The notes under the pieces: model-generated
Seen by the model: the letters and a program-made list of their open reading frames with translations, nothing else
Databases searched by the model: none
What the model was told of the DNA's origin: nothing
Shown here: positions 5,284-19,670 of the stretch, in pieces
Layout: each line of letters opens with the position of its first letter
Numbering within the stretch: the first letter of the stretch is position 1
Source: a virus
IMG/VR virus record: IMGVR_UViG_3300046522_000275
Coordinates: 1-20,234 of that record
Direction: 5' to 3' (one strand)
DNA: 20,234 bases
Made by a program: the position numbers and the translations under genes

Positions 5284-5322
5284 GTACCGATTATCGGGAA
5301 GACTCTTCCCGAATATGGGTAA
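5284..5322. promoter_or_regulatory. Two tandem repressor operators (left immunity site)
   Basis: GTACC-GATTATC-GGGAA (5284-5300) and TTCCC-GAATATG-GGTAA (5306-5322) both fit the TTACC-N7-GGTAA dyad found at the repressor locus. Each has one or two half-site changes. Their centres are 22 bp apart, two helical turns, which suits cooperative binding. They also share a 19-base perfect dyad around base 5303 (TCGGGAAGA-C-TCTTCCCGA). They lie about 80-115 bp before the first gene of the leftward operon, where its promoter should be. A weak TTCCCG/TTTAAA pair with a 17-base gap can be read on the minus strand. Confidence 0.75.
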
Positions 5323-5345
5323 CATCACTTGCAAACGCGTATACA

Positions 5346-5442
5346 AACGGGCAAGCTGATCGCGTCCCGAACGGCAATCAGCAAACTTCCAATAGGGACA
5401 GACTAGGACCCCACCCCCCGGTTTGGTCCTAGTCTTTTTTTT
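5346..5442 (+). ncRNA. Candidate small RNA with terminator, opposite to the operons
   Basis: The interval between the leftward operons has no gene on the plus strand, yet it ends in a textbook plus-strand terminator. It also contains an upstream stem GCTGAT (5355-5360) / ATCAGC (5377-5382). TATACA at 5340-5345 could be a -10 element, placing the start just after the operators. The -35 is not convincing. The 3' end would overlap the end of the macro-like gene on the other strand. This is a candidate only; the alternative is that the hairpin simply insulates the two leftward operons. Confidence 0.4.
5400..5442 (+). terminator. Strong rightward intrinsic terminator
   Basis: AGACTAGGACC (5400-5410) pairs perfectly with 5425-5435 over a 14-base C-rich loop and is followed by eight T on the plus strand. 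On the minus strand the stem is preceded by A and followed by GTCCC, so it is not a good leftward terminator, although the leftward gene's TAG lies inside the stem. Confidence 0.85.
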
Positions 5443-5833
5443 GCGGCCATGGGCAAGGCGCCATGTCGTCAAAAGCCTGCCAGATAAGCATGTAGAGCTT
5501 GGGCGCACGTCGCGGAAGATCGGCCAAGCCAGTGCCTAAGCCGTGCGCTGGCACGTATATATCCCGGCCCTCTTCCCATGCTTTCGCGACCTTTAGTAAA
5601 TCATCGCGCACGGCGCTAATGAACTCTTCGCAATGATCATAGAAGTAGGCGTCTTCGTCTAAAGTCGGATATCGCTTTGTCACGACACCAATAGCGTTCG
5701 GCTCGTTACGCATGATGCGCGCCTGTCCGCCGCGCCCTCGCCGCTCCATATTGTCGCCGAAGACGAACCGGGCTTCCGGTAGCGAACGCATAAGGCTTCG
5801 GCTGATGAAGTTGCGATAGATCAGTTGCGGCAT
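5429..5833 (-). CDS. Macro-domain-like protein of phage type
   Basis: The 134-residue product contains RFVFGDNMERRGRGGQA (about residues 22-38), NEPNAIGVVTKR and, near the end, VPAHGLGTGLADLPRRAP. The Asn/Gly-rich first loop and the late G-x-G-T-G-L-A-x-L-P loop resemble the two ligand loops of macro domains, which bind ADP-ribose and related nucleotides. I recall this as a family of unknown function common in phages of alphaproteobacteria. The ATG at 5833 overlaps the upstream stop (TAATG), preferred over an upstream in-frame start inside the previous gene. It ends the leftward operon. A role in countering nucleotide-signal defences is possible but unproven. Confidence 0.7.
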   Translation of the reverse strand: MPQLIYRNFISRSLMRSLPEARFVFGDNMERRGRGGQARIMRNEPNAIGVVTKRYPTLDEDAYFYDHCEEFISAVRDDLLKVAKAWEEGRDIYVPAHGLGTGLADLPRRAPKLYMLIWQAFDDMAPCPWPQKKD

Positions 5834-6084
5834 TACCAGACCTTGGGATATTTTTCTTTGAGCCACTTATACTGTTCCGCGTCCGCCGGCCCGATACGCT
5901 CGGCGATGCCTTCGGTTGGCGTCAAGGCGGTGACGTTGAAGCCTTGCCGGCAATCGGCGTTCTTACAGTAAATGTTTTGAGACATGCCGCCGCGCGGTCC
6001 TTTGAAGAACCCATATGGCGCGCCGCATTGCGGGCAACAGATGCGCATGGAGAGAACGGAATAGAGCGCGGAAGAGTCGGTCAT
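5833..6084 (-). CDS. Hypothetical zinc-ribbon protein
   Basis: The 83-residue product has CCPQCGAPYGF near residue 16 and YCKNADCRQGF near residue 40, two Cys pairs that would form a zinc ribbon like those of Ogr/Delta-type or other small phage proteins. Its tail is charged and aromatic (EQYKWLKEKYPKVW). The ATG at 6084 overlaps the previous stop (TGATG), and the frame upstream is an improbable His/Arg-rich extension inside the neighbour. The role is unknown; DNA or RNA polymerase contact is a common use of such ribbons. Confidence 0.8.
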   Translation of the reverse strand: MTDSSALYSVLSMRICCPQCGAPYGFFKGPRGGMSQNIYCKNADCRQGFNVTALTPTEGIAERIGPADAEQYKWLKEKYPKVW

Positions 6085-6548
6085 CAGTGAGTGACTCGCG
6101 TCCCGAACATATCGCCGAAGGTGCCAAGCGCTTCGCCGTTCGGCGTCGTGATGAATTCCTTGATACGCGGTTCGCCGTTTATGCGCTCGATAAGCCAAGC
6201 CCCCTGTCTGCGGTTGCCGTCCCTGTCTTCGACCATGACAGCGACGCCTTCCTGTCGTTTCGGGTCTTGCGACGGCGGCGTGAAGTTGGCGGCGTCAATC
6301 GCCCGCGTGTCCGGTAGCTTCGTCTGTGTGAACCACATTTCAAATATCAAGCCATAACGCTGAACGTTCTTGGCCTTGAACATCACGCGCACCATGCCAA
6401 CCATGAAATGCTTTTGCGCGTTGTTCTCCCATGGGCACGGGATAACGTCTTCGTCCGTGACGAAGACGGGCATATGAGTCCCCGCCTTAAGGAACGTCTT
6501 GCGAGCGCGTCCCTTCAACAGTTCAAAGAATTCGTCTATGTCGCGCAT
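6084..6548 (-). CDS. Hypothetical protein, 154 residues
   Basis: The product (MRDIDEFFELLKGRARKTFL...) has alternating beta-type segments (HFMVGMVRVMFKAKNVQRYG, GVAVMVEDRDGNRRQGAWLI) and a Gly-rich end. No catalytic motif or metal site is apparent. The start overlaps the upstream stop by one base (TGATG), as do most joints in this operon. I recognise no family. Confidence 0.75.
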   Translation of the reverse strand: MRDIDEFFELLKGRARKTFLKAGTHMPVFVTDEDVIPCPWENNAQKHFMVGMVRVMFKAKNVQRYGLIFEMWFTQTKLPDTRAIDAANFTPPSQDPKRQEGVAVMVEDRDGNRRQGAWLIERINGEPRIKEFITTPNGEALGTFGDMFGTRVTH

Positions 6549-6748
6549 CAGTCCAAAGTCTCGATTGTCACGCGCACGCGCTTACCAAGGAATGGTTCAA
6601 TCTCGGCATGACGCATTGTCTCGTCCCACGACTGGATGCGAACGAACATGCCAGCGTCTTTGTCCCCTCCGACTTCGGCAATGATCGCCTGTCCGCCGTC
6701 TTCGATCTTGTGCATTTCTATTTCGGCTTCACGCGTCCACGTTGGCAT
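6548..6748 (-). CDS. Hypothetical protein, 66 residues
   Basis: A small acidic protein (MPTWTREAEIEMHKIEDGGQ...) whose end, EPFLGKRVRVTIETLD, looks like a terminal beta hairpin. The ATG at 6748 lies within the end of the preceding gene, with a 20-base overlap. The family and role are unknown. Confidence 0.7.
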   Translation of the reverse strand: MPTWTREAEIEMHKIEDGGQAIIAEVGGDKDAGMFVRIQSWDETMRHAEIEPFLGKRVRVTIETLD

Positions 6749-7316
6749 TGCCGTATTCCCTCTTCATGATCGCCAGCCCTTCGGCGTCGGGAAGCCGCTG
6801 GCCATGTCGCCAGAACTGGACCTCTGCGAACGGATGCAACGGCTTCATATTGAAGTTTTGGAACACTTGCTGGCGCGTCGCCTTGATCGCTACGAACAAG
6901 TCGCCGGCCGGACGACCGGGAATCATCGTGTTGTCGATAAGGATCATCTTAGGGTCAAAGGTTCCCTTGGCCTTCGCCTTCGCGAGTCCGATCTCCCGCG
7001 CGTAACGCGGCGCCGCGAGATAGGGGCAAACCTGTAAGGCATACTTTGCACATTCGCCGTGCATGGGCGGGTCAATGAACGCGCCGTCTTCATGAAATGC
7101 GGATAACGACCCGCCAACAAACCAGCGCGCCTTTACATTCCTGGTGCCGCAGATAGAACAGCAATCCTCACTAACTACTTGCCAGCGCGTCGCTTCGTTA
7201 TTGATTGCGAAGTGGGGTTCGCCGGCTGCATCGATAAGAACGCCGTGGGGGATTGGGTAGCCGCGCCTGTCTATCTTTAGGTGCGCCATCCTTTGCGGAA
7301 TGGGTACGGTCTGCAT
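6729..7316 (-). CDS. Conserved phage protein with Cys/His metal-site pattern, operon head
   Basis: The 195-residue product has CCSICGTRN near residue 53, then a FHEDGAFIDPPMHGECAKYA stretch and VCPYLAAPRYAREIG. I recall this combination as a recurring phage protein of unknown function. The CxxC and the later H-x-x-C and C suggest one structural zinc. The ATG at 7316 has a good ribosome site, GAGGAAG, eight bases before. A consensus TATAAT -10 element is embedded in an operator-like dyad just upstream, so this first gene and the four behind it are likely repressed in the lysogen. Confidence 0.8.
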   Translation of the reverse strand: MQTVPIPQRMAHLKIDRRGYPIPHGVLIDAAGEPHFAINNEATRWQVVSEDCCSICGTRNVKARWFVGGSLSAFHEDGAFIDPPMHGECAKYALQVCPYLAAPRYAREIGLAKAKAKGTFDPKMILIDNTMIPGRPAGDLFVAIKATRQQVFQNFNMKPLHPFAEVQFWRHGQRLPDAEGLAIMKREYGNANVDA

Positions 7317-7336
7317 GCAATGGCTTCCTCAAAATT

Positions 7337-7353
7337 TTACCGATTATAGGAAT
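7337..7353. promoter_or_regulatory. Operator overlapping the leftward TATAAT promoter
   Basis: TTACC-GATTATA-GGAAT matches the operator consensus in the left half and spacing, and only partly in the right half. Its centre reads TATAAT on the minus strand (7348-7343), a perfect -10 box, 27 bases before the ATG at 7316. No good -35 is visible 17 bases further up, so the promoter may need an activator or an extended element. Confidence 0.6.
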
Positions 7354-7390
7354 ATTGCGGGCGGCGCATAGCGTGCGCGACGTAAAGCCG

Positions 7391-7563: not shown

Positions 7564-7845
7564 TTGAACACAATCGCCGTTAGCGACGCCGCCAAGCTCT
7601 TCGTTTGCGTAAGGGTCACAGACCCGCTGTTGTTGCCGGACAACGTCACAGGGGCTTGCGTGTCCTGCGGTGCCGCCGTCCAGTTCAGACCGTCCACCCC
7701 GGCCGACACGTTGAAGCTCTGCAACGTGTGTGCGGCCCCGGCCATGGCGGCGGCGTTCGGCAAAGGCGACTTGCACCTAACGTTGACGAAGGAAGGGCTT
7801 GAAGAGGCGACGAAGATCATAGGCGACGTGACGAAGGCGGAATAA
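7564..7845 (+). CDS. Small zinc-ribbon protein, isolated rightward gene
   Basis: The 93-residue product has CVSCGAA near residue 32 and CNVCAAP near residue 53, a plausible four-Cys zinc ribbon. An acidic/helical tail (TKEGLEEATKIIGDVTKAE) follows. The TTG at 7564 is chosen because AAGGA lies seven bases before it. A longer frame from a TTG at 7474 would translate a hairpin and lacks a ribosome site. Competing minus-strand frames here have unlikely composition. The gene stands alone between the leftward operon and attP, and its stop codon lies in a hairpin. I do not recognise a family. Confidence 0.65.
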   Translation: MNTIAVSDAAKLFVCVRVTDPLLLPDNVTGACVSCGAAVQFRPSTPADTLKLCNVCAAPAMAAAFGKGDLHLTLTKEGLEEATKIIGDVTKAE

Positions 7846-7935: not shown

Positions 7936-7963
7936 TGCCCTTGGTATCTTATTGGTATCTTTT
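7936..7963 (+). repeat. Left copy of a 28-bp direct repeat (arm sites)
   Basis: Identical to 8196-8223, with two TTGGTATCTT boxes 11 bases apart. A third box follows at 7974-7983 on this side only. Confidence 0.9.
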
Positions 7964-8001
7964 GGAAGGTTGGTTGGTATCTTAAAAGCCGCCAATTTCG
8001 C

Positions 8002-8021
8002 AAAACCCTATCAAAATAGGG
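8002..8021 (-). terminator. Terminator just past the tRNA-Asn fragment
   Basis: On the minus strand CCCTAT-TTTG-ATAGGG followed by TTTT begins seven bases after the CCA end of the tRNA fragment. After integration it would terminate the reconstituted tRNA-Asn transcript. Confidence 0.75.
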
Positions 8022-8027
8022 GGAAAT

Positions 8028-8077
8028 TGGCTCCCCGGGCTGGATTCGAACCAGCGACCATTCGATTAACAGTCGAA
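8028..8077 (-). other. attP: attP core: 3' part of a tRNA-Asn gene
   Basis: On the minus strand this reads as the anticodon arm TTCGA-CTGTTAA-TCGAA (anticodon GTT at 8070-8068), the variable loop, the TTCGAAT T-loop arm, the 3' acceptor strand GGGGAG and CCA. The D-arm and 5' acceptor strand are missing, so it is not a functional tRNA. It is the piece a tRNA-targeting integrase carries to restore the gene it enters. The 50 bases are the likely identity segment with attB; the exact crossover is not visible. After insertion the complete tRNA would face the reductase side of the phage, and the leftover fragment would lie beside int. Confidence 0.85.
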
Positions 8078-8105
8078 TTAAGGCCATGGAAGAGAGGTGA
8101 AATAG

Positions 8106-8122
8106 ATACCCAAAATCGGGAA
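8106..8122. promoter_or_regulatory. Possible repressor operator upstream of int
   Basis: ATACC-CAAAATC-GGGAA fits the TTACC-N7-GGTAA pattern with one change per half. It lies just before TTGCAG-N17-TAAGAC (8129-8157), a weak promoter candidate for int. The match is degenerate and could be chance. Confidence 0.4.
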
Positions 8123-8195
8123 ATATGCTTGCAGAATGCGGGTTTTTTCTCTAAGACCATTCGAATAAGGAGAACCAAGGGGAAGCGATTGGAAG

Positions 8196-8223
8196 TGCCC
8201 TTGGTATCTTATTGGTATCTTTT
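8196..8223 (+). repeat. Right copy of the 28-bp direct repeat (arm sites)
   Basis: Identical to 7936-7963 and offset by 260 bases. It ends just before the GGAGG ribosome site of the integrase gene. Confidence 0.9.
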
Positions 8224-8236
8224 TGGAGGCTGAATC

Positions 8237-9436
8237 TTGAGATTTACGCAGGCGGCTTGCGAAACCCTAACGATCCCCAAGGGCAAAACCGACCATATCG
8301 AATGGGACGAATCCATGCCGGGGTTTGGCATTCGGTTCCAGAACGGCGGCGGCAACCCATCTTACACGATCAAGTTTCGCGTCGGAACTAAGCAGCGCCT
8401 TAAGTCCCTTGGCCGCGTTTCTCAGGTCAAGCTTACGGCGGCGAAGGCCATGGCGTCGAAGCTCTTTGGCGAAGCCGTCCAGAATATTGACCCGGTCAAA
8501 AAAGCCGCCCTTGCCCGTATCGATTCCAAGAACACCATCACGGCGCTTAAGCAAGACTTCCTTGACTGGCTGACCTCGAACGGCCGGAGTCAGTCGTGGA
8601 TTGACTTCAACGATTTTGCCCTAACAACGCATTGGGAACCGCTGCACAAGTACAGCCTTGGCGAGATTACCCGTGCGCTGGTTGCCGACCAGCTTAAGAG
8701 CTTGACCAAGACCAGCGGTCCGACCTCTGCGGACCAATGCCGGGCCGTCCTGTCGAAGTTCTTTAATTGGGCCATGGGGGAAGGCAAGGCGGAAAACAAC
8801 CCGGTCCATGGGACCAACAAGAACGGCACAGCCAAGCGAACCCGCGTCCTGACGTTCGCCGAAATCAAGAAAATTTGGCATGCCCTCCCGAATGACGACT
8901 ACGGCAAGATTTGCCAATTGCTGATCTTGAACGGATCACGGCTCGCTGAAATGGGCGATCTCAGCCGCTCGGAAACCGACCTTGGCAACCGGCAAATCAT
9001 TCTCTTGCCGGGAGACCGGACCAAGAACGGCTTGCCGCACACGATCCCGTTGGCGCCTCACTCGCTGGCGTTGCTTCGCGGGATGACCAAGACAGGCCGT
9101 GATTTCTTTTTCGGTAAACCGCGAAGCACCAACCCGACGAAGAAACCGAAGAAAGCCAAGGGGTATTCCGGCTGGACCAAGAGCAAGAAGCGCCTTGACG
9201 AAATTCTCAAGTTTAAGAAGGCATGGACGCACCACGATTTCCGCCGCTCGCTGGCGACTTACATGCGCCAAGAGTGCAAAGTATTGCCGCACATCGTGGA
9301 AGCCGTCTTGAACCACGTTAGCGGCGCCGACAAGGGCGGCGTGGCCGGCGTCTACAATTACGCCGAGTACGACGAAGAGAAGCGCGCGGCGCTGATCTCA
9401 TACGAAGAATTCATATTGCGCGTTGTGAATTCCTGA
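8237..9436 (+). CDS. int: Tyrosine-type site-specific integrase
   Basis: The 399-residue recombinase inserts and excises the phage at tRNA-Asn through a covalent DNA-tyrosine intermediate. The N-terminal segment (about 1-95) resembles the DUF4102-like arm-binding domain (MPGFGIRFQNGG...YTIKFRVG...KSLGR), the middle (about 100-190) is the SAM-like core-binding domain, and the rest is catalytic. The tetrad is visible as R235 (NGSRLAEMG), H333-x-x-R336 (HDFRRSLATYM), H360 (LNHVSG) and nucleophile Y373 (GVYNY). The start is TTG at 8237, supported by GGAGG seven bases before; no nearby ATG fits. The gene follows attP directly and converges on the AlpA-like gene across a shared terminator. The arm repeats immediately upstream suggest autoregulation. 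Confidence 0.96.
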   Translation: MRFTQAACETLTIPKGKTDHIEWDESMPGFGIRFQNGGGNPSYTIKFRVGTKQRLKSLGRVSQVKLTAAKAMASKLFGEAVQNIDPVKKAALARIDSKNTITALKQDFLDWLTSNGRSQSWIDFNDFALTTHWEPLHKYSLGEITRALVADQLKSLTKTSGPTSADQCRAVLSKFFNWAMGEGKAENNPVHGTNKNGTAKRTRVLTFAEIKKIWHALPNDDYGKICQLLILNGSRLAEMGDLSRSETDLGNRQIILLPGDRTKNGLPHTIPLAPHSLALLRGMTKTGRDFFFGKPRSTNPTKKPKKAKGYSGWTKSKKRLDEILKFKKAWTHHDFRRSLATYMRQECKVLPHIVEAVLNHVSGADKGGVAGVYNYAEYDEEKRAALISYEEFILRVVNS

Positions 9437-9443
9437 AATGAAA

Positions 9444-9467
9444 AAGGGCGGCTGAAAAGCCGCCCTT
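9444..9467. terminator. Bidirectional terminator between int and the AlpA-like gene
   Basis: AAGGGCGGCT and its perfect complement form a 10-bp stem over the tetraloop GAAA. T-rich sequence follows on both strands (TTTTTCATTT on the minus strand, CTCTTTAG on the plus strand). It closes both int and the long early operon. Confidence 0.9.
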
Positions 9468-9471
9468 CTCT

Positions 9472-9693
9472 TTAGTGTCGTGTCTCTGTCAAGCCGTTCA
9501 GGAATTCGGCGATCTCGAATTCATACCAGCCGATTCCGCGATCCCCGACTTTAACGCGTTTCGGGAATTTGCCTTCGTTCTCCAAGTTCAGTAAATGCCG
9601 ACGCGTGAACTTGATCCCGGCGACGGGCTTTAGCTCTTCATAGCTCAATAGCTTTTTGATGAATGGAACGCTTGCCGCTTGCTGCGCTCCCAT
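9472..9693 (-). CDS. alpA: AlpA-family DNA-binding protein, putative excisionase
   Basis: The 73-residue product shows the AlpA/MerR-like winged helix: FTRRHLLNLENEGKFPKRVK followed by GIGWYEFEIAEFLNGL. This family includes phage regulators and recombination directionality factors. It is the last gene of the early operon and lies tail to tail with int, which fits a protein needed for excision once the operon is derepressed. The N-terminus (MGAQQAASVPFIKKLLSYEE) precedes the motif, and the ATG touches the stop of the upstream gene. The family call is firm; the excisionase role is inference. Confidence 0.85.
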   Translation of the reverse strand: MGAQQAASVPFIKKLLSYEELKPVAGIKFTRRHLLNLENEGKFPKRVKVGDRGIGWYEFEIAEFLNGLTETRH

Positions 9694-9972: not shown

Positions 9973-11595
9973 CTATGCAGCTTTCGACTCCTCCGCTGGC
10001 TGGTTGTCGTTGGCCGGTGCGCGCCACGGCTTGAAGCCAACGACGTTCATAAATTTTCCGTCCGGCGTCGGTCGCGCCATGATCTCCAAAGTTGGATTCA
10101 ACTCGCCTTGGCGTTCCAGCCATTCGGCGACATTGTCCGGCGACGGTCCCTTGCCGCCGTGATCCTTCCAAAACTTGTTCCACTGCCCCGGTTTCTTGTC
10201 GCGGTTCAGCCACGTTCGGTAAGGAATGAAGCCGCTAAAGAATTCAATCTTGACGCTCTCTTCGTCCGCCTTGTTGACGTGATGCGAGAAGGTGCGACTC
10301 CGCACATGAAGCCAATCGCTATAAGCGCTCTTAAGAATGGGCGTTACGTCGGCGACAGCGGCATGGCGCGGCGCGTAGTTGATTGGGAACGGCGTTCCAC
10401 AGCACGGGCATTCCTTCGCGCTGATATGAACCAACTCGCGGCAAGCCGCGCATTCCTTGACAGGCGCTTCCCCGTTGCCCTTCCCCGGCTTGCGCGGCTC
10501 GATAGCGTCAACCGGTCCATGGCGCCGAACGTTGCCGGCGAAATCCATGTACCGGCAATCGAGCTTGCCGGGGAAAAGCCGTGTGCCACGTCCGACCATC
10601 TGGACGAACAGACCCGGCGAGTCCGTTGGTCGCAAGCCGGCGATAAGGTCCAGACGCGGGAAGTTCGAACCCGTGGTTAGAACGCTGTTGTTCGTAAGCG
10701 CGTCGATATCGCCGTCTTTGTACCGCTCGATAATAAGCCGGCGTTCGCCCTTCGGCATTTCACCAGTGATCGTTTCGCACTTGTAGCCATGCGAGCGGAT
10801 CGCGTCGCGGACATGGTAAGCGTGTTCAACGCCGGCACAGAACGCCAGCCAGCTTTTGCGGTTCTCGGCGCGTGCGGTCGCGACGATCTCTTCGACAGCC
10901 GCGCGCGTCGTCTCTTCCTTATCGCAAGCGGCCTGCAATGCCTTGGCGTTGAAGTCGCCTCCGGTCCGGCCAACGCCGCGCAAATCAAAGCCGGCGTTCG
11001 TGGCCTTGTTCGTAAGCTTGGTAAGGAAGCCGTCGCGGATGCCATCGGCGATCCCGTATTCATATACGACCCTGTCGAAGAGTCGTTCTTCGCCGTCGTC
11101 CAGCCGGCCGCTATCGGTTCGGTACGGCGTGGCCGTGAATCCGACAACGCGCATTTCCGGGTTGATGGCCAGAAGCTCTTTGATGAATCGGCCGTACTTG
11201 GTGGACTCCTTGCGCGGCACAAGGTGGCATTCGTCAATCGCAAGCAAATCGACGTGGCCGATAAGTGCGGCCTTCATGTAAACGGAGTCGATGCCACAAA
11301 AGAGAATCTGCGCATTGGCGTCGCGGCGGTTCAGCCCCGCCGAGTACACGCCAGCCGGTGCGAAAGGCATGATGCCTAGAAGCTCGATATAGTTCTGTTC
11401 AATCAATTCCTGGACGTGCGTAACGCAGACGACGCGGAACTGTGAATACGTCGTGATAAGCCGGCGCGCCATATCGGCTTGCACCAATGACTTACCCGTA
11501 CCAGTCGCGAGAACGACAAGCGGATTATCCCCGCCGTTCGCCCAATAGTCGAAGGTCGCGGTGATTGCGGACTCTTGGTATGGTCGAAGTATCAT
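9973..11595 (-). CDS. SF2 DEAD/DEAH-type helicase with C-terminal zinc finger
   Basis: An ATP-driven nucleic-acid helicase of the type phages use in replication or recombination. In the 541-residue frame counted from the TTG at 11598, motif I is ATGTGKS (31-37), motif II DECH (122-125), motif III TAT (155-157) and motif VI QMVGRGTR (333-340). The N-terminal LRPYQ is the Q-motif region. A Cys cluster, CAACRELVHISAKECPCC (383-400), makes a zinc ribbon, and about 140 C-terminal residues follow, ending in ANDNQPAEESKAA. The ATG at 11595 is preferred because it overlaps the upstream stop as TGATG. The Res/RecG-like subfamily is not resolved. It is the largest early gene and sits near the operon end. 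Confidence 0.93.
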   Translation of the reverse strand: MILRPYQESAITATFDYWANGGDNPLVVLATGTGKSLVQADMARRLITTYSQFRVVCVTHVQELIEQNYIELLGIMPFAPAGVYSAGLNRRDANAQILFCGIDSVYMKAALIGHVDLLAIDECHLVPRKESTKYGRFIKELLAINPEMRVVGFTATPYRTDSGRLDDGEERLFDRVVYEYGIADGIRDGFLTKLTNKATNAGFDLRGVGRTGGDFNAKALQAACDKEETTRAAVEEIVATARAENRKSWLAFCAGVEHAYHVRDAIRSHGYKCETITGEMPKGERRLIIERYKDGDIDALTNNSVLTTGSNFPRLDLIAGLRPTDSPGLFVQMVGRGTRLFPGKLDCRYMDFAGNVRRHGPVDAIEPRKPGKGNGEAPVKECAACRELVHISAKECPCCGTPFPINYAPRHAAVADVTPILKSAYSDWLHVRSRTFSHHVNKADEESVKIEFFSGFIPYRTWLNRDKKPGQWNKFWKDHGGKGPSPDNVAEWLERQGELNPTLEIMARPTPDGKFMNVVGFKPWRAPANDNQPAEESKAA

Positions 11596-12020
11596 CAAAA
11601 CGAGAACCCGCGATTTGTGGCCTTGCTAAAGATTGCGTCCATGCATTCGATTTGCCGAACGCTTGGGCGCCAATACCCGTTGTCGTCATGCTGTTGCAGG
11701 ACACTCGCGACGAACGTTTTTTCCCAGCCGCTCAAGAACGGTTCGGCTTTCATCGCTTCCAATGCCTGCATGGCCTGCGCAAAGCCGAAGTAGCGGAACG
11801 TCTTCGCGTCGCTGTTATCGTTGCTCGCTCGATACTCGCGGCGCGGCTGTTCGAATGCCGGCTTCGGCGCACCCAGGAATTTTGCGAAATCGTGCCAGTC
11901 GTAACCGCCAGATTTCAGCGCGCGGCCGATAGCCGCCGCAGTCGCGGCAACCTCTCCCGTCTGGTCACTACTCAACATGGGTAGCAACTTCTGAACTCTG
12001 GCGATTACGTCCGGTGTCAT
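11595..12020 (-). CDS. Conserved phage hypothetical protein
   Basis: The 141-residue product begins with a helical segment, IARVQKLLPMLSSDQTGEVA, then AAIGRALKSGGYDWHDFAKF, a pattern I recall in many alphaproteobacterial phage and host proteins of unknown role (DUF2786-like in look). A disordered stretch with RASNDN and a helical C-terminal domain (LSGWEKTFVASVLQQ...RQIECMDAIF) follow. The latter is reminiscent of small domains attached to replication or helicase partners. It is coupled to both neighbours (ATGA upstream, TGATG into the helicase), so it may be a helicase partner. Confidence 0.75.
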   Translation of the reverse strand: MTPDVIARVQKLLPMLSSDQTGEVAATAAAIGRALKSGGYDWHDFAKFLGAPKPAFEQPRREYRASNDNSDAKTFRYFGFAQAMQALEAMKAEPFLSGWEKTFVASVLQQHDDNGYWRPSVRQIECMDAIFSKATNRGFSF

Positions 12021-12202
12021 GGCGTTACGACCGCGTCCAATTCACCCGGCTTGAAGTATTCAATGAGCGCGGCTTTCTGCCCGTCATCCAGACGCAGAAC
12101 CAACCGGCTTTCTGTAAGCGTGTAGCCAACGACTGGCAGACCTACGCAATGGTGCAGCTTCTCGCGAAGCGACGCGGAGTCCCATGAGTCACTTACAGGC
12201 AT
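12017..12202 (-). CDS. Hypothetical protein, 61 residues
   Basis: A short acidic protein (MPVSDSWDSASLREKLHHCV...) with a beta-type middle (VVGYTLTESRLVLRLDDGQ). The ATG lies in the last ten bases of the deaminase gene, and the stop overlaps the next ATG. It carries no motif I can name. Confidence 0.7.
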   Translation of the reverse strand: MPVSDSWDSASLREKLHHCVGLPVVGYTLTESRLVLRLDDGQKAALIEYFKPGELDAVVTP

Positions 12203-12621: not shown

Positions 12622-12842
12622 CACGCGCAACAGTCCATCAAGAACCGCGCGGCCATAGCTCCGACCTGTACGGCTTCGTCTGCCGCGTGGTCACTGTCGT
12701 TCGCTTTCACGTCGTCCCAAAGCTCGTCCACCTCTTCCATGAGAACCGCAAAGCCCTCATGGCTGGAATTGAACGCCGGAAACTTCGCCGTAGCTCGCTC
12801 CACTTCGGCGCGGATTGAGTCCATTGCTTCGTCAAGAGTCAT
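12621..12842 (-). CDS. MazG-like (all-alpha NTP pyrophosphohydrolase) protein
   Basis: The 73-residue helical product has HEGFAVLMEEVDELWDDVKA (about 29-48), with the EExxE metal-binding motif, followed by DEAVQVGAMAARFLMDC (about 55-71). This is the layout of short phage MazG-like proteins that hydrolyse (d)NTPs or alarmone-type nucleotides. The ATG at 12842 has GAGG six bases before; a TTG two codons earlier is possible. It sits immediately before the dCMP deaminase, supporting a role in dNTP pool control. The substrate is not known. Confidence 0.85.
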   Translation of the reverse strand: MTLDEAMDSIRAEVERATAKFPAFNSSHEGFAVLMEEVDELWDDVKANDSDHAADEAVQVGAMAARFLMDCCA

Positions 12843-13242
12843 CTTCAACCTCGCTCACGCCGACGCTGAAACCGCCGTAATAGCCATTGTGTTCGTTGTG
12901 ATTCACGATGGTTACGAAGCCGGTTTCCGTCGCGATCTCAACAAAGACGGTTTCATGTTCGCCGCTGTCGTCGCCTTCGCCTGGTCCCGGCTTCTCTTCG
13001 ATGCGAATAAGCAGATGACCGACAAGCGACTGAATATCGTCGTCCGTCGTCATGTACCTATGTTCGCAACACGACTGCCCGTCGTCGCGAATGGCGATGC
13101 GCTTGCCGTTCTCAAGAGCGAGGGTGATTTGCTCTTCGGTCATCGTGGCGGACGTGATGCGCTGGCCATAATGCTTCGACAGTTTAAGGTCGCGCTCTGC
13201 ACGCCTGTACGAGTCGAGATAGATATGCTGTCCGTTGAACAT
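12832..13242 (-). CDS. Conserved phage protein (DUF7448-like)
   Basis: The 136-residue product contains GQRITSATMTEEQITLALEN, then DDGQSCCEHRYMTTDDDIQS and an acidic C-terminal half with IVNHNEHNGYYGGFSV. I recall this GQSCCE...TDDD...HNEHNGYYGGF pattern as a family found widely in phages, with no assigned function. Two adjacent Cys and nearby acidic and His residues could bind a metal. The ATG at 13242 is the only good start. It overlaps the MazG-like gene by 11 bases. Confidence 0.8.
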   Translation of the reverse strand: MFNGQHIYLDSYRRAERDLKLSKHYGQRITSATMTEEQITLALENGKRIAIRDDGQSCCEHRYMTTDDDIQSLVGHLLIRIEEKPGPGEGDDSGEHETVFVEIATETGFVTIVNHNEHNGYYGGFSVGVSEVEDDS

Positions 13243-13251
13243 TGACCGTTC

Positions 13252-13500
13252 CTATGCTGCTACGCGGTATCGAAAGAGTCCGCCGCTCACGCGTTCACGT
13301 TCCACGTTCCACGCGCCGAACCGTGTTTTGCGAAGATCGCGAAGCCGCGCCGAGACGCTGGCTTCTGGCTTGTTTGTCGCTACCGCGATCTCGCGAAGCG
13401 TCCGCCAACGACCGTCCGCCATAACGGCGAAGACGGCGTCTAGCTGTGTGGACAGGCGTTGGTTGTCCAACGCGGGTTCATATGTTTGGCCGCTGAACAT
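13252..13500 (-). CDS. Winged-helix DNA-binding protein
   Basis: The 82-residue product contains LDAVFAVMADGRWRTLREIA and NKPEASVSARLRDLRKTRFG, a winged helix-turn-helix with a typical recognition helix (EASVSARLRDLRK). A beta wing ending YRVAA follows. Similar small proteins are common in alphaproteobacterial phages and are thought to act as transcription or replication regulators. The ATG touches the upstream stop (TGATG). The target is unknown. Confidence 0.85.
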   Translation of the reverse strand: MFSGQTYEPALDNQRLSTQLDAVFAVMADGRWRTLREIAVATNKPEASVSARLRDLRKTRFGAWNVERERVSGGLFRYRVAA

Positions 13501-13862
13501 CAGGCGGCTCGCTTGTCGAAGCTCAGAATCTCGCCGTCCGCGTACAGTCCGCTCGCTTGGAAGTACGCCAGAATCTTCGGCATCATATTGTCCGCATCGA
13601 TACGGCTTGTCGGCTGCGGCGCCTCCAAGTGCGCGATAGCTGGCGTTTTGATACCAGTGGCCGCGCCAAGCTCCTTTTGCGTAATGTCCAGCAACGCGCG
13701 ACCAGCCGCAACGTACCGGCCCAAGGGCTTGACGGCGTCAACGTCAAACGGCTTACGCGTCTCCCGCGCTTCGGCCATGCTAATGGCGCGTTGGGCCGTT
13801 TGAAAAAGAGCGTCCATTTTCGATTGGAAGTCTGCCCGAATCTGTTCTGCTGTTTTCGTCAT
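13500..13862 (-). CDS. Xre-type helix-turn-helix protein
   Basis: The 120-residue product has a helical N-terminal region and then GRALLDITQKELGAATGIKT followed by PAIAHLE (about 54-80), a recognisable Xre fold. The remainder is acidic and helical and ends KRAA. This is the fourth or fifth DNA-binding protein of the window, placed mid-operon, so it may act late in the early phase. The start overlaps the upstream stop (ATGA). Confidence 0.8.
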   Translation of the reverse strand: MTKTAEQIRADFQSKMDALFQTAQRAISMAEARETRKPFDVDAVKPLGRYVAAGRALLDITQKELGAATGIKTPAIAHLEAPQPTSRIDADNMMPKILAYFQASGLYADGEILSFDKRAA

Positions 13863-14047
13863 GCCGTGACTCCTTTGCTATTTTCCAACAACCATTCCAG
13901 TTCTTGAACGGCGCCGATCTCACGCGCGAAAACCGTTGCCGTTATCGCAACATCGGCGACACCTTCGGACGCTTCGAACGCCTTTTGAGCGTCCACAGAT
14001 CGCGCACGCGCTTTGATAAGGCGCTGGTTGATTAGGTCTTTCGTCAC
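13859..14047 (-). CDS. Hypothetical helical protein, 62 residues
   Basis: The product (MTKDLINQRLIKARARSVDA...) is predicted helical with an Ala-rich centre and the tail LEWLLENSKGVTA. The GTG at 14047 is chosen because GTGA overlaps the stop of the nuclease gene, a coupled arrangement seen elsewhere here. The longer frame would extend 11 codons into that gene. The role is unknown; its place beside the nuclease may be meaningful. Confidence 0.7.
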   Translation of the reverse strand: MTKDLINQRLIKARARSVDAQKAFEASEGVADVAITATVFAREIGAVQELEWLLENSKGVTA

Positions 14048-14979
14048 GCTGCTATCCTCTCGTTTGTGCCATCGGTCCACACGGACCCGTTCTTCATGCG
14101 ATAGGTGATTGTCTCGGCGCCTTCGTCGGAATCGATTTGTTCGCCGGGCACCAGGTCAGGATCAAAAAGGTGCGTCGGACATGCCGCTTTCTGTTCGTCA
14201 AAGCTCAACGGCTTCGCCCATCGCGCGCATGACCAATGCGCGTCGCCCGACATTTCCGGCGTGGAATGAATGCAAGAGCGGCACGTGATGCGCGGGAACG
14301 CGTCGTAATGGCAGACCGGTTGATGATTGCAGAATGAACACAGGTAGTAGTCGTGTTTCTCCGATATCTTTGCCGGCGGACGCGTTGCCTTTACGATGCG
14401 TTCGGCCTTCGCCAACATCTGCATGCAGAAAGCGGCGTCATACTCGATACGCTCTTGATAAAGCTGGTCATCGTTCTTGTTGACGACCAGATACAGCGCA
14501 CGAGTCAGACCAAAGGCATGCATGCCGATTTGACATTGAACGTAATGTTGCGGCTTGGCCTTCGCGCAGCCGTCCTTTACGAGAAGCTTAAAATTCTTGT
14601 CGTTCGAAGATTTGAACTCGGCTAAGTGTTCTGTCTTCGGCGCCTCTGGCAGATTGAGCGCGCGACCGTCGATCTTGCCGCGCACGTGGCCGGCGACAAG
14701 GCGGATACGGTCTTGCTCTCCGAAGACTTCGACGCCAGCGCGTTCAAGGTCTTCAATCATCCGGCGTTCTTCGATATTGCCGGTTTCGAACAAGCGCAGT
14801 TGCTTGCCGGTGAAGATTTCAAGCGGAGTCGCCCAACGGAACGAGTAGTAAAGCGAGCGCTCGCATTCGTTGCCTAGATCGCCAACGGAAATCCCTAGCG
14901 AGTCCCAATTCTCGGCGTTCGCAACCCACGCGGCATAGATCGCGGCAATGGTATGCTGGATTGGTACGGGGAACGGCAT
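14044..14979 (-). CDS. Cas4-like PD-(D/E)XK nuclease with extra Cys cluster
   Basis: A 311-residue DNA exonuclease of the RecB/Cas4 fold. Visible motifs are GNECERSLYY (C39), HVRGKIDG with D104, EFKS with E121-x-K123, and the following Gln-rich helix YVQCQIGMHAFG. The Cys set C39, C214-x-x-C217-x5-C223 has the layout that holds a 4Fe-4S cluster in Cas4 and AddB. A second set (CRSC at 233-236, then C251 and C267) suggests another metal site. With the Sak4-like ATPase and the DUF669 protein upstream it would supply single-stranded ends for phage recombination. It ends in Ile-Ala-Ala. It is unlikely to belong to CRISPR adaptation, as no cas1, cas2 or array is present. Confidence 0.88.
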   Translation of the reverse strand: MPFPVPIQHTIAAIYAAWVANAENWDSLGISVGDLGNECERSLYYSFRWATPLEIFTGKQLRLFETGNIEERRMIEDLERAGVEVFGEQDRIRLVAGHVRGKIDGRALNLPEAPKTEHLAEFKSSNDKNFKLLVKDGCAKAKPQHYVQCQIGMHAFGLTRALYLVVNKNDDQLYQERIEYDAAFCMQMLAKAERIVKATRPPAKISEKHDYYLCSFCNHQPVCHYDAFPRITCRSCIHSTPEMSGDAHWSCARWAKPLSFDEQKAACPTHLFDPDLVPGEQIDSDEGAETITYRMKNGSVWTDGTNERIAA

Positions 14980-15167
14980 TAGTGAACGCTCACACGCTTT
15001 GTTGCATAGCCCGGCTTAAGCTTGCCTTCGGCGGCCATCTGTTCACGCCATTTGATTTCGTCCGCTCGGAACTGCGCAGGGCTATACGACGCGTAGCCGC
15101 CGCCGATTAGTTCGCCGTCCTGCATTTCGCGTACCTCTGCCAAGTGAGCTTCCATCTGTGTGTGCAT
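14979..15167 (-). CDS. Hypothetical protein, 62 residues
   Basis: A charged helical protein (MHTQMEAHLAEVREMQDGEL...KLKPGYATKRVSVH). The ATG at 15167 has a clear ribosome site (AAAGGAC seven bases before). The open frame further up is Arg/Pro-rich shadow of the DUF669 gene. Its stop overlaps the nuclease ATG (TAATG), so it is probably translated together with the nuclease. No family is recognised. Confidence 0.75.
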   Translation of the reverse strand: MHTQMEAHLAEVREMQDGELIGGGYASYSPAQFRADEIKWREQMAAEGKLKPGYATKRVSVH

Positions 15168-15231
15168 GGCCTGTCCTTTGAAAATCCCGACCGGGAAGAC
15201 GCGCGCAACGCGTGCGCCCTCCCGTGTTCGG

Positions 15232-15747
15232 TTAAGCGGCGTTACGCTGCGGCCACGGCGCCTTGGTATTGCTGTTCGCGGCGTTGGCGACTTGCTTGAC
15301 GTTGTCGTTCGCGGCCTTCGGAGGCGGCGCGGTCCCGCCGCTGGTGAACAGCTTGTGAGTCTTCGACCAATCGACTTCGTTGCGCGCTTCAAAGTCACCC
15401 TTGGCCGCGCGGATTTTCACCACGCCGGTAAACGCACGGAAGCAAAGGTCTTCCGGCTCTTCCGGGTCCGGCACGCCGACCACGTCGCGAAGCGCCTTGA
15501 ATTCGGACTGGCCGATTTCCTGGGCTGTCGGATTCGGATTGCTCAAGTTGAACTGTCCGAAGAGGAGTCGGCCCTCGTATTCGCCGCTGATGACTCGAAT
15601 CTTGTGCTTGAACAGTTCGCCGTCACCCTTGGCCGTGGGTTTTACTTCGCCCTCGATAAGCTCAAGTTCGTATGTGCCGGCGGGGAAGGTATCAAAGCCT
15701 TTAGGGGCTTCGGCGTTCTCGTCGTAACGACCTGACAGACTACCCAT
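15232..15747 (-). CDS. DUF669 phage protein, putative ssDNA-binding partner
   Basis: The 171-residue product has the DUF669 pattern: an N-terminal acidic start, FPAGTYELELIEGEVKPTAK (about 21-40), FKHKIRVISGEYEGRLLFGQ (46-65) and a QSEFKALRDVVGV helix. A long low-complexity tail follows (PPPKAANDNVKQ, ending NAA). DUF669 proteins sit next to RecA-like Sak4 ATPases in many phages and are believed to bind single-stranded DNA; a flexible acidic/Asn tail is SSB-like. The ATG at 15747 has AAGGAA upstream, and the longer frame is discounted. A 64-base gap separates it from the next gene. Confidence 0.82.
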   Translation of the reverse strand: MGSLSGRYDENAEAPKGFDTFPAGTYELELIEGEVKPTAKGDGELFKHKIRVISGEYEGRLLFGQFNLSNPNPTAQEIGQSEFKALRDVVGVPDPEEPEDLCFRAFTGVVKIRAAKGDFEARNEVDWSKTHKLFTSGGTAPPPKAANDNVKQVANAANSNTKAPWPQRNAA

Positions 15748-15834
15748 GAAGATTCCTTTTGTTGGGTTTTGGACACAGAGAGGCATTCGCCGCCGAAGCG
15801 GCGTTGGCCGATTTCAGAATGTGAGAGTTGTTAG

Positions 15835-16536
15835 TTAGGCGGCTTGCGCGATTGTCTCGACGGGCTTGAAGCTCGCGGCGGGGTAAGCGCCATCAAGCAA
15901 GCCGGGATAATTGCGGTGCCAGCGATCCCACTTCACGAACAACGTATTGCCCGTGACGCCGGTAATGGTTGCGGTGAAAGGATCGCGAAGGAATGGCGAC
16001 GAATAGTTGACGCGCTGTCCAACTTTGAAGACTGTCTTGTCTTCAATGATCGGGTACAGCTCTTCCACGTCCCAACCGTTTTGAGGCGTCGGTATGTTGT
16101 CCCATTTCACCACACACGTACCGAATCCGTTGGACACGACAGTACCGGGTTCCTCGTCAATTCCGCGCTCGGTGACGCGGTCCCCTGCTTTCGGAAACCA
16201 GAATTTCAACTCACTCGCGTTGAAAATGTAGTTGTCCGAAATGGCGCGGCTCTGCCCCTTAAGGAAGGTCACGGTGTACGGGATTTCCTCTTCGTCGTCG
16301 CCGTCATCTGCGGTAACGATTCCGATTAAGTCCTGATACACGGCGCCGAGAACCACGACGCAGTCACCAACCTTGAAGGCGCGTTCGTCTTCGTCGTCCG
16401 GCGCCAGCTTCAAGCCCCGGCCGTCGATGACGCACTTTTCGCCGTCGTCAAACTGGATGCCAACCAGCCCCGGCAAAATCACAGTGCCAATGCGGTTGTT
16501 GAAGACGGATTCAACACGGTCATTTACAGCGAACAT
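15835..16536 (-). CDS. Unknown protein of four tandem SH3/KOW-like repeats
   Basis: The 233-residue protein seems built from four similar segments (about 3-45, 54-110, 115-163, 168-228). Each opens with a F/A-x-V-G-D-x-V type turn (FAVNDRV, FKVGDCV, KAGDRV, FKVGQRV), followed by a Gly-x-Val strand. The last two share V-x-K-W-D. This resembles tandem small beta-barrels of SH3 or KOW type used for protein, RNA or DNA contact. It is acidic overall. It lies between the Sak4-like ATPase (TAATG overlap) and DUF669, so a recombination accessory role is plausible. I know of no characterised homologue. Confidence 0.8.
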   Translation of the reverse strand: MFAVNDRVESVFNNRIGTVILPGLVGIQFDDGEKCVIDGRGLKLAPDDEDERAFKVGDCVVVLGAVYQDLIGIVTADDGDDEEEIPYTVTFLKGQSRAISDNYIFNASELKFWFPKAGDRVTERGIDEEPGTVVSNGFGTCVVKWDNIPTPQNGWDVEELYPIIEDKTVFKVGQRVNYSSPFLRDPFTATITGVTGNTLFVKWDRWHRNYPGLLDGAYPAASFKPVETIAQAA

Positions 16537-17339
16537 TATGCGGCTTCCTTTTGCTCTACCTGGACGTTGTCGTTTGCCGCTCGCGGTGCGGGGAAGTATT
16601 GAGCCAAGGCCGCGTAGCCTTTGCCTTTCTTGAAGGGGACGCTTGCCGGCATCGAATAGCGGTTCTTGGCAAGGAAGCCGGGACGCTCTTCAAGATGAAT
16701 GTTGCGCTCGCCAGAACCTTCGCCGTGAGCAACCTTCGTCTGCCGCGCCACTTCCTTTTCTTTCAACGTCGTCCGATAATTAACGAACGCGACAACGTCC
16801 GCCTTTTCCCTGACAAAACCGCGCGCTCGCTTATGTAGCTTAAGGTCATATCGGGAGTACGGGTCACTGGTTGGCGAGTCGAAACGGTCAATGTGCGGAT
16901 GCGCAAGCAACACCACGCCAATTCCAGCCTTCTTAAGATGGGCGAACCCGTCCAGAAGATTGAACCATTCCTTGTCCGCTTCAACGTAGCCCTTGCCGAA
17001 CCCCGGCGTTTCGATTGACGGGACACCAAGGCGCCGGCACGTTTCAGCCCATACCAGCGGTTCAAGGCCATCCATAGAGTCGATAATGACCGTCTGGAAG
17101 CCGTGGTCCGTGCTAAGTAGCTCGCCAATATAATCAACCAAGTCACCATACGACTCGATCTCTCCCGGCGTTGGCAGTTCAATGTCGTTCGGCGTCTCTT
17201 CACCCGTCGTATTCAGATAGATCGGGTTCGGCCATTCGGCCGCGAGTGAAGTCTTGCCGACACCATCCACGCCATACAGGACGAAGATAGGCGGCTTGTC
17301 AGACTTCGAACTCACTAGCGCGCTAATGCTCTTAGCCAT
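16536..17339 (-). CDS. RecA-like phage ATPase (AAA_24/Sak4-type)
   Basis: The 267-residue product shows Walker A GVDGVGKTS (23-31), Walker B TVIIDSMDG (about 83-91) and a sensor-like LLAHPH (144-149). This is the core of the compact RecA fold seen in Sak4/AAA_24 phage proteins, which promote single-strand annealing or strand exchange. The tail carries RAANDNVQVEQKEAA. The ATG has AAAGGGA before it and lies in the end of a small membrane-protein gene, with a 25-base overlap. Together with DUF669 and the Cas4-like nuclease it forms the recombination set. The exact annealing activity is family inference. Confidence 0.88.
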   Translation of the reverse strand: MAKSISALVSSKSDKPPIFVLYGVDGVGKTSLAAEWPNPIYLNTTGEETPNDIELPTPGEIESYGDLVDYIGELLSTDHGFQTVIIDSMDGLEPLVWAETCRRLGVPSIETPGFGKGYVEADKEWFNLLDGFAHLKKAGIGVVLLAHPHIDRFDSPTSDPYSRYDLKLHKRARGFVREKADVVAFVNYRTTLKEKEVARQTKVAHGEGSGERNIHLEERPGFLAKNRYSMPASVPFKKGKGYAALAQYFPAPRAANDNVQVEQKEAA

Positions 17340-17811: not shown

Positions 17812-17812
17812 G

Positions 17813-18022: not shown

Positions 18023-18234
18023 CAAATTGCCTTCTTGATCTTGTCGGCTGCTGCCAGCGCCTTGTTGCTCTCGGCGTGCGCGGTAGCCGCATGGTCCATG
18101 TGTAGTTCCGCAAGGTGCGTGTGGTTCTCTCCCTTCGCTGTGTGACGCTGTGAATACTGAGTGAGACGTTCCAGAATGCCGGCGATAGGCGCGACGATGC
18201 CTTCGACGCTTTCGCGTCGGTTCAGTAACTTCAT
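18022..18234 (-). CDS. Hypothetical helical protein, 70 residues
   Basis: The product (MKLLNRRESVEGIVAPIAGI...) has amphipathic helices and a His-rich middle (HTAKGENHTHLAELHMDHAA) that could bind a metal or form a coiled coil. The ATG follows AAAGGAACGC, a good ribosome site. It is the second gene of the early operon. No family is known. Confidence 0.7.
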   Translation of the reverse strand: MKLLNRRESVEGIVAPIAGILERLTQYSQRHTAKGENHTHLAELHMDHAATAHAESNKALAAADKIKKAI

Positions 18235-18245
18235 GATGCGTTCCT

Positions 18246-18794
18246 TTAAGAAGCGAGTTTGAAGGGAGTCGTTGGAAGCGTGATTGGCCGCGCCGTGGTA
18301 TGCGACTGGTCAACCTTGTATCGCGCGCGATCCGTGTTCACTTGAAACAGGACAACCGCGCTGTTCCGCTCGGCGTGCGAACGTGAGTCAACTTCATAAA
18401 CACGGCCGGGATATGCAGCACGCAAGGCGCGAAGCTCTGCGGCACTGGACCGCATGTTGTTCTCGTGACTGCAAATATCTTCGTCGTCTTCGCTATCCGC
18501 CTTGTCGAATAACATTGCGCCGGATGCTGCCAAAATATCTTGCTTGACCTCATGGACTGAACCAAGCGAAACACTAAACAGATTAGCTATCACGCGAAGC
18601 GAAAGACCCGGAAACATTCGCATGATCTCTTCAATCTTGGCGAGAGTCTTAGGTCCATGCGTCTTTTTAGAACTGGTCGAAGCATCCTTCGCCTTGAAGA
18701 TGACCGGATTGGCCTTCATGTAGGCTCGCGCCGCCGCTTCAAGTTCGGCGTTCGCTGCACGTTTCTTTGTGTAGTAATCCCCGCCCGTCGTCAT
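18246..18794 (-). CDS. Head gene of the early operon; helix-turn-helix protein
   Basis: The 182-residue product contains ELEAAARAYMKANPVIFKAK, then KIEEIMRMFPGLSLRVIANL and SVSLGSVHEVKQDILAASG. This is a plausible helix-turn-helix (sigma-4 or MarR-like in look) around residues 55-90, followed by a basic/acidic C-terminal half. It is the first gene to be expressed on derepression, divergent from the repressor across two operators. That is the usual place of Cro, an early activator or a replication initiator, and which of these applies cannot be told. The ATG at 18794 has AGG seven bases before. Confidence 0.7.
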   Translation of the reverse strand: MTTGGDYYTKKRAANAELEAAARAYMKANPVIFKAKDASTSSKKTHGPKTLAKIEEIMRMFPGLSLRVIANLFSVSLGSVHEVKQDILAASGAMLFDKADSEDDEDICSHENNMRSSAAELRALRAAYPGRVYEVDSRSHAERNSAVVLFQVNTDRARYKVDQSHTTARPITLPTTPFKLAS

Positions 18795-18815
18795 CTTGTA
18801 CCTGTCGTGTTGCTG

Positions 18816-18868
18816 TGACCGGAAGTAGGTAAATCTCAGTGGTCAAACGTTTACCGATTTCAGGTAAA
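18816..18868. promoter_or_regulatory. Two repressor operators in the divergent immunity region
   Basis: TGACC-GGAAGTA-GGTAA at 18816-18832 and the perfect TTTACC-N7-GGTAAA at 18850-18868 lie between the repressor and the early operon, with centres 35 bp apart. On the minus strand TTGTTA-N17-TAAACG (18877 to 18849) overlaps the second site and is a weak promoter candidate. Position and symmetry mark these as the main control sites of the lysis-lysogeny switch. Confidence 0.85.
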
Positions 18869-18894
18869 ATTAACAACTTTGTTCAGACGATTTT

Positions 18895-18923
18895 TCTTGA
18901 TTGGTGCCAAATTGGCGTATAAG
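18895..18923 (+). promoter_or_regulatory. Likely repressor promoter
   Basis: TATAAG at 18918-18923 is a good -10. The -35 could be TTGATT (15-base gap) or CTTGAT (16). The spacer contains the dyad GCCAA-A-TTGGC (18906-18916), possibly a further control site. A short leader leads to the ATG at 18955. Confidence 0.6.
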
Positions 18924-18954
18924 ACCGCAGGTTGCATATGGGGAATGGGCGGCA

Positions 18955-19617
18955 ATGGCTGATCTAAAAAACTGGCTGGCCAAGGGACTAACTAAGGACG
19001 GCGTCACCGCCGCGAAGGTCGCCGCAGCGTTGAATATGCACCATTCGGCTGTGTATAAGCTGGCCAAAGGCGAACGCCGTTTCAGGCCGGAAGAGCTTCC
19101 GCTTATCGCTCAAGTGATCGGTGAACCGGTTCCGTATGACCCGGAGTCCGGTGCCAGCTTCAACAATAAGAAGGTTGTCACAATCCCGGTTGAAGGCATT
19201 GTCACCGCTGGCGATTGGATCAGGCTCGATAAAGCGGCCCCCCTCGCCCCGTACAATATCGTTGTTCCACGCGATGAACATTTCCCGAAAGCGCAACATC
19301 TGGCTTACCGGGTTTCGGGAAGCTCGCTGAAAGAGTGCGGCGTACTGGACGGCGACAACGTCTTCGCAATCGCGTTCGATGGCATGGGCGGATACGAAGC
19401 ACTCAACGAAGGTATGATAGCCGTTGTGGAACGTTGCAGCCGGCGGAACATCGTAGAGCGCTCGCTTAGGGCTGTGACGAAGACCAAGGACTCGTTTGTG
19501 TTGCAGTCGGGAAAGACTGAAACCATTCTGTTACTTGCGCCAACAAGCAAGCCGTCGATTGCCTCTGGTATCAGGATCGTATCAATAGTTCGCGGATCGT
19601 TTCGCAACTTCACCTAG
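18955..19617 (+). CDS. CI-like repressor: HTH plus S24 (LexA-like) domain
   Basis: The 220-residue lysogeny repressor has an N-terminal Xre-like HTH (about 8-50, with VTAAKVAAALNMHHSAVYKL) and a C-terminal S24 domain (about 75-220). A possible self-cleavage bond is A85-G86 (GIVTAGDW). The Ser nucleophile is S124 (VSGSSLKECGVLDGDNV). The residue expected to be the Lys partner is Arg (R172 in ERSLRAV), so RecA-stimulated self-cleavage may be weak or lost. The ATG at 18955 is preferred over a GTG frame beginning 54 bases upstream, inside the promoter. It faces the early operon across two operators and is followed by another operator and a terminator. A DNA dyad like the operators also lies inside its coding sequence. 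Confidence 0.9.
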   Translation: MADLKNWLAKGLTKDGVTAAKVAAALNMHHSAVYKLAKGERRFRPEELPLIAQVIGEPVPYDPESGASFNNKKVVTIPVEGIVTAGDWIRLDKAAPLAPYNIVVPRDEHFPKAQHLAYRVSGSSLKECGVLDGDNVFAIAFDGMGGYEALNEGMIAVVERCSRRNIVERSLRAVTKTKDSFVLQSGKTETILLLAPTSKPSIASGIRIVSIVRGSFRNFT

Positions 19618-19653
19618 AGATTAACTAAATCCTGTTGAACAAACTTGTAAGTC

Positions 19654-19670
19654 TTACCGGTTTTCGGTAA
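19654..19670. promoter_or_regulatory. Repressor operator between repressor stop and terminator
   Basis: TTACC-GGTTTTC-GGTAA is a perfect half-site match. It starts 37 bases after the repressor stop and abuts the terminator stem. No promoter is evident on top of it, so it could act as an elongation block or a looping partner. Confidence 0.65.

Follow-up and report, generated by a model that had tools for sequence, protein, structure and literature searches.

The IMG/VR virus record IMGVR_UViG_3300046522_000275 is a temperate-phage fragment of 20,234 bases, and this entire record is the window to which all counts and scans of the phage's own DNA described here are confined. Towards its right end lies a rightward gene for a 220-residue repressor (18955-19617, plus strand), which has an N-terminal helix-turn-helix (HTH) and a C-terminal LexA/CI-like (S24) domain. 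Divergent from it lies the first gene of the leftward early operon (18246-18794, minus strand, 182 residues). Around these two genes, and at a few places farther to the left, the DNA carries 17-base-pair (bp) palindromes of the form TTACC-N7-GGTAA. A first-pass annotation, made from the letters alone, had listed eight such sites and had proposed that they are the operators of one repressor regulon.

All eight of the listed sites are found in the window, with one coordinate to be corrected, as the site placed at 18850 occupies 18851-18867. The palindrome is exact at 18851 and 19654, has one mismatch at 5306, 18816 and 19305, and has two mismatches at 5284, 7337 and 8106. The putative right operator (OR, 18851-18867, minus strand) sits in PR, the leftward early promoter, within its 17-bp spacer, and a second OR site (18816-18832, minus strand) lies immediately before the first early gene, with its centre 35 bp downstream of that of the first. 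The putative left operator (OL, 19654-19670, plus strand) begins 37 bp past the repressor stop codon, within the spacer of PL, the rightward promoter. Far to the left, a distal pair (5306-5322 and 5284-5300, both minus strand, 22 bp from centre to centre) precedes a leftward operon starting at 5207/5240, and a single site (7337-7353, minus strand) stands 21 bp ahead of the leftward gene 6729-7316 and overlaps a TATAAT. A possible further operator (8106-8122, plus strand) falls between the probable tRNA-derived core of the phage attachment site (attP) and the integrase gene int. The eighth site, 19305, is inside the repressor gene, in the codons of a YRVSGSS motif; it is probably a coincidence and is not counted.

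This family of about seven matching sites is real by every count made. With up to two mismatches there are 15 matches compared to 4.3 +/- 2.2 expected from dinucleotide shuffles, and none of 100 shuffles reaches 15. With a relaxed pattern, TTMCC/GGKAA at one mismatch, there are 10 matches compared to 1.3 expected. Among 320 half-sites with two G/C letters, TTACC ranks first both by total matches and by intergenic matches. Eight of the 15 matches, and four of the five with at most one mismatch, are intergenic, while intergenic DNA makes up 7.1% of the window by a gene set picked by the analyst from the open reading frame list (binomial p 3e-6). An equal frequency inside and outside genes would have counted against the regulon, and it was not observed in the window.

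The organization of the two promoters follows from a 37-nucleotide inverted repeat, 78% identical, which flanks the repressor gene at 18849-18885 and 19636-19672 and spans the operator together with the string TGAACAAA-N-TTGTWA. In PR (18848-18885, minus strand), the TGAACAAA block at 18878-18885 is followed by a -35-like TTGTTA (18871-18876) and a -10-like TAAACG (18848-18853). In PL (19636-19673, plus strand), the same block at 19636-19643 is followed by TTGTAA (19645-19650) and TAAACC (19668-19673). When the main promoters are aligned with those of related phages, a common plan emerges: an upstream block, a -35-like TWGYAA, a 17-nucleotide spacer that holds the operator, and a -10-like TACAAC or TAAACC. 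The hexamers and start sites are predictions, and this repeat and aligned plan together place the repressor gene between PR, which would serve the early operon, and the rightward PL.

Downstream of the repressor gene, an inverted repeat at 19669-19698 (plus strand) is predicted to fold into a hairpin (-21.3 kcal/mol, z -3.5) followed by a run of U, which would serve as the terminator of the repressor transcript. The predicted PL start, near 19680, falls within this hairpin. In folding predictions, RNA that starts upstream forms the terminator, and a start near 19680 leaves out the 5' arm and gives a different fold. The repressor message may therefore end at this hairpin, with transcripts from PL reading through it.

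Related phages provide an independent view of the sites. Collection by way of the Sak4 gene gave 80 loci, of which six have an orthologous repressor adjoining a homologous first early gene. The latter has a homologue in all six, mostly at 30–41% identity by BLASTP, with G003 giving a short match only. In five IMG/VR relatives (L003, L005, L007, L009 and L010), two 19-bp palindromes TGTNNC-N7-GNNACA lie between the repressor and the first early gene, at the place of 18816 and 18851. They are 31–32 bp apart in all five (one of those in L010 is imperfect), compared to 35 bp in the window. Exact matches to this pattern number 7, 7, 4, 4 and 4 in the five records, where 0.1–0.6 are expected. Past the repressor stop codon, L005 and L009 have sites at 23 and 46 bp, which bracket the 37 bp of the window. 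L003 and L005 also carry a pair spaced by 22 bp about 400 bp behind the repressor, which resembles 5284/5306; the relatives' pairs with this centre-to-centre spacing are G001 9114/9136 and G003 11901/11923. At G003 3207 and G004 3760, sites stand at matching places, judged by eye, directly after homologous genes. These five relatives therefore share with the window the orthologous repressor, the early operon, the 5+7+5 geometry, the placement of the sites and their centre, but the half-site is TGTAGC or TGTACC in them and TTACC in the window. Their repressors have a longer HTH turn, with about eight extra residues before the recognition helix, and an Arg near the start of that helix where the window repressor has His; it is a speculation that this difference explains the changed outer letters of the half-site.

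The sixth relative, L004, has a repressor gene flanked by a 28-nucleotide inverted repeat, and no operator could be defined there in spite of it; three tandem copies of TGTGCCGATTTTC precede the gene at 7632-7670. Searches of viral contigs with single proteins found no close relatives of the window repressor or the first early gene. A repressor alignment found no more relatives among viral contigs and none in the species-genome collection, and no phage was added when contigs were scanned for a pattern of the relatives' PR region.

A 13-bp core matrix built solely from the relatives' sites was used to rank all 20,222 positions of the window. The sites 7337, 5284, 18851, 19654, 8106, 5306 and 18816 take ranks 1, 2, 3, 5, 6, 7 and 13, and 19305 takes rank 32. 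The sites 7337 and 8106, which had been called weak, are strengthened by this result. Scored by their 7-bp centres alone, all seven intergenic sites are in the top 0.1–9% of intergenic positions (p 7e-6), and 5284 is in the top 0.2%. Most of the remaining half-site matches have poor centre scores, but good ones are seen at 19305 and 9551, which is inside the excisionase gene (p 0.003 for the seven centres against the other half-site matches). A different matrix, the relatives' 19-bp one with fixed TGT and ACA ends, gives a full TGTNNC-N7-GNNACA match at 13053-13071, inside the gene 12832-13242 in the codons of CCEHRYM. This match is probably coincidental and was set aside.

The repressor itself is assigned to Pfam HTH_3 and to a PHROG repressor family. 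Its predicted structure is of moderate confidence (predicted local distance difference test score 78) and combines an HTH with a LexA-like C-terminal fold, matching a lambda-186 CI hybrid and LexA in Foldseek at E about 5e-6. In a profile alignment to LexA, Ser124 corresponds to Ser119, Ala85-Gly86 corresponds to the cleavage site, and Arg172 occupies the position of Lys156. The Ser-Lys catalytic dyad is thus incomplete, and with Arg in place of the catalytic Lys, self-cleavage is predicted to be reduced. Arg is also found at this position in five of the six relatives, L004 alone having Lys, and L007 has Cys instead of the Ser.

The excess of sites and their intergenic position, the sites of the relatives, the matrix ranks, the repeat shared by PR and PL, a layout like that of phage 16-3 (discussed below) and the LexA/CI-like model together make it highly probable that the repressor encoded at 18955-19617 uses these sites as its operators, as one regulon. 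Independent support for that early proposal comes from the relatives, in which an orthologous repressor is accompanied by sites of equal geometry at corresponding positions. In lysogeny, a dimer of the repressor would bind the palindromes, with the consensus TTACC-GAWTWTC-GGTAA. PR (through 18851, aided by 18816) and PL (through 19654) would act as near-identical promoters, inverted with respect to each other and flanking the repressor gene, and repressor bound within the 17-bp spacer would block RNA polymerase. This would silence both the leftward early operon and the rightward operon served by PL. The distal leftward operon, with its pair 5284/5306, and the gene 6729-7316, with the site 7337, would be silenced as well, and we propose that the repressor may also act near int via 8106. 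The repressor transcript would end at 19669-19698, and PL transcripts would escape that end.

Several observations weigh against this interpretation. The -35 and -10 hexamers are poor compared to the sigma-70 consensus, and a promoter scan of the window gave no excess. The record is a phage fragment. For 5284/5306, 7337 and 8106 the relatives offer no orthologous position, and in the case of 5284/5306 a search with the first left-operon gene gave no homologues. The statistics are also not fully independent, as the 13-bp matrix and the half-site have C/G columns in common, and the centre tests, including that against the other half-site matches, are partly circular for sites that were originally picked for similar centres. 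Finally, a second DNA-binding protein that can use these sites may be the product of the first early gene.

This last point leads to the view that the main protein at these sites, or an additional one, is another regulator, such as the first early gene product (Cro-like) or one of the XRE proteins of the left operon (3965-4432 and 4436-4780), with the S24 repressor sharing only some of them. Lambda CI and Cro use common operators, the window holds several HTH genes, and sub-threshold HTH hints appear in orthologues of the first early gene. On the other hand, the letters of the sites vary between phages while their geometry and their positions beside the repressor gene persist, no homologues of the XRE genes were detected in the contigs of the relatives although the sites are present there, and a phage-specific block upstream of the -35 (described below) is a better candidate for a second regulator's site. 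This explanation is therefore considered unlikely. It is rather improbable, too, that only the PR and PL sites (18816, 18851 and 19654) are true and that the others are chance look-alikes. The distal sites all have two mismatches except 5306, and their lack of counterparts in the relatives has been mentioned, but they rank 1, 2, 6 and 7 with a matrix made from other phages, the 22-bp spacing of 5284/5306 recurs in pairs of two relatives, and the relatives also bear additional sites ahead of scattered genes.

Two more general explanations have next to no weight. One is that the motif belongs to replication iterons like those of lambda-O-type genes, where the same letters recur, and TTACC-N7-GGTAA arrays are indeed found in more than 100 viral contigs. 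However, the long arrays that were examined are tandem and inside a lambda-O-type replication gene, while the window sites are dispersed, mostly intergenic and at promoters, and form no tandem array within an initiator gene, which makes an iteron role extremely improbable. The contigs L083-L202, obtained from a paired-site pattern scan, were for this reason rejected as relatives: they are mostly lambda-O-type arrays in which the letters serve an unrelated use, and the bare consensus is thus no sign of kinship. That the sites are mere chance palindromes in intergenic DNA, which is slightly A+T-richer, is hardly credible, as shuffles in 200-bp blocks, which keep the local composition, give 0.45 matches with at most one mismatch compared to the 5 observed, and the half-site ranking, the two-mismatch shuffles, the matrix ranks and the centre test contradict it also.

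A regulon of the S24 repressor was described from the outset as lambda-like in logic. This is correct, but the nearest described layout is immC of Rhizobium phage 16-3, whose features are taken here from the annotation of record NC_011103. In lambda, as in the window, the gene of a repressor with the CI/LexA-like fold (predicted here) lies between two outward promoters with multiple 17-bp palindromic operators. The window differs in having two OR sites instead of three, extra operators before distal operons, operators without sequence-level kinship to those of lambda, and Arg at the catalytic Lys position. The pair 5284/5306 had been taken for the lambda-like left pair; the left operator that matches lambda and 16-3 is instead 19654 at PL, and 5284/5306 is an extra distal pair.

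In 16-3, OL1, OL2 and PL come right after the stop codon of the repressor gene c (OL1 about 16 bp past it, compared to 37 bp for OL in the window), and OR1, OR2, Pc and PR stand ahead of the equivalent early operon. Both phages thus have a repressor gene flanked by an operator-bearing PL at its 3' end and an operator-bearing PR before an early operon with a Sak4-like protein, a Cas4-domain exonuclease and a DEAD/DEAH helicase. Unlike 16-3, the window has one site rather than two at PL, and its repressor gives no significant BLASTP match to C (E 1.4) and does not class as C-type. The operators of 16-3 are ACAA-N4/N6-TTGT, compared to TTACC-N7-GGTAA here, and there is no exact TTACC-N7-GGTAA in the 16-3 early region. 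The window resembles a 16-3-type immunity region in plan and is not a member of it by repressor or operator letters. Cluster A mycobacteriophages offer another comparison. Their stoperators, sites that stop elongation, are dispersed over the genome, asymmetric and numerous, their repressor binds as a monomer, and related phages have diverged in immunity specificity (PMC9283540 and PMC6550527). Dispersed repressor sites and diverging specificities are common to both systems, but the window sites are few, palindromic and at promoters instead of many and asymmetric.

This is therefore a known kind of system with a new repressor-operator specificity, as neither the repressor nor its DNA letters are described in the sources searched. 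The half-site had not been recognized from any described phage, and no description of a TTACC-N7-GGTAA operator was found in the open-licence phage papers searched. The 16-3 immunity layout is retained here with a different repressor and a different DNA code. Among the related repressors, operators constant in geometry and centre but variable in their outer half-site letters make a natural series on immunity-specificity switching, and they provide candidate orthogonal repressor-operator pairs for alphaproteobacteria. The short list of sites makes the one-regulon claim directly testable.

A second element of the promoters is the block of 8–12 nucleotides directly upstream of the -35 at the main operator-bearing promoters, which is common within a phage and differs between phages. 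In the window, TGAACAAA is found only at 18878-18885 (minus strand) and 19636-19643 (plus strand). In the relatives, blocks are located at G001 10327/9164/35157, G003 13087/11951, G005 5028/3849 and L009 1875/288, and the block sequences among the relatives are TATGGAAACAC, TTGTCGGGCCAC, AGCTTGAACAC, TTCTAAAACC and TTCTGGTCACA. The best second match to the block in its own contig lies 7–8 nucleotides upstream of another operator in L005, L010 and L009, and is tied in L003. The block is a possible site of a second phage regulator. We can suggest, tentatively and with more doubt than confidence, a phage-switch family with two co-varying address codes, a spacer operator read by the repressor and an upstream block read by a second regulator, in which the repressor may not cleave itself and would be induced by another route. 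A stem, CCCRCAWWRAGGG, is conserved in the relatives directly beyond the second of the promoters that lie downstream of the repressor (G001 9114, G003 11901, G004 about 13100 and G005 about 3800), and it may function as a hairpin in RNA and not as an operator.

The early operon core (9973-17339, minus strand) encodes a helicase (9973-11598), a Cas4-type nuclease (14044-14979) and a Sak4-like annealing protein (16536-17339), all on the minus strand, assigned by PHROGs and with homologues in the relatives and in phage 16-3. The integrase gene int (8237-9436, plus strand; Pfam Phage_integrase, PHROG 1) is followed by the gene of an AlpA-type excisionase (xis, 9472-9693). Beside int lies a tRNA-like stretch (8031-8090; Rfam tRNA, 30 bits) with an anticodon resembling Asn GTT, flanked on either side by TTGGTATCTT repeats (7940-8222). 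Together these are the probable attP core and integrase arm sites. With phage genes on either side, the tRNA-like stretch looks like attP, and the record is thus more likely to come from free phage DNA than from one end of an integrated phage. At the end of int and xis (9423-9505, minus strand), there is a sub-threshold Rfam match to the Brucella small RNA BSnc120 (35 bits compared to a cut-off of 114), and at 45-1343 a gene for the large subunit of ribonucleotide reductase runs off the left end of the record.

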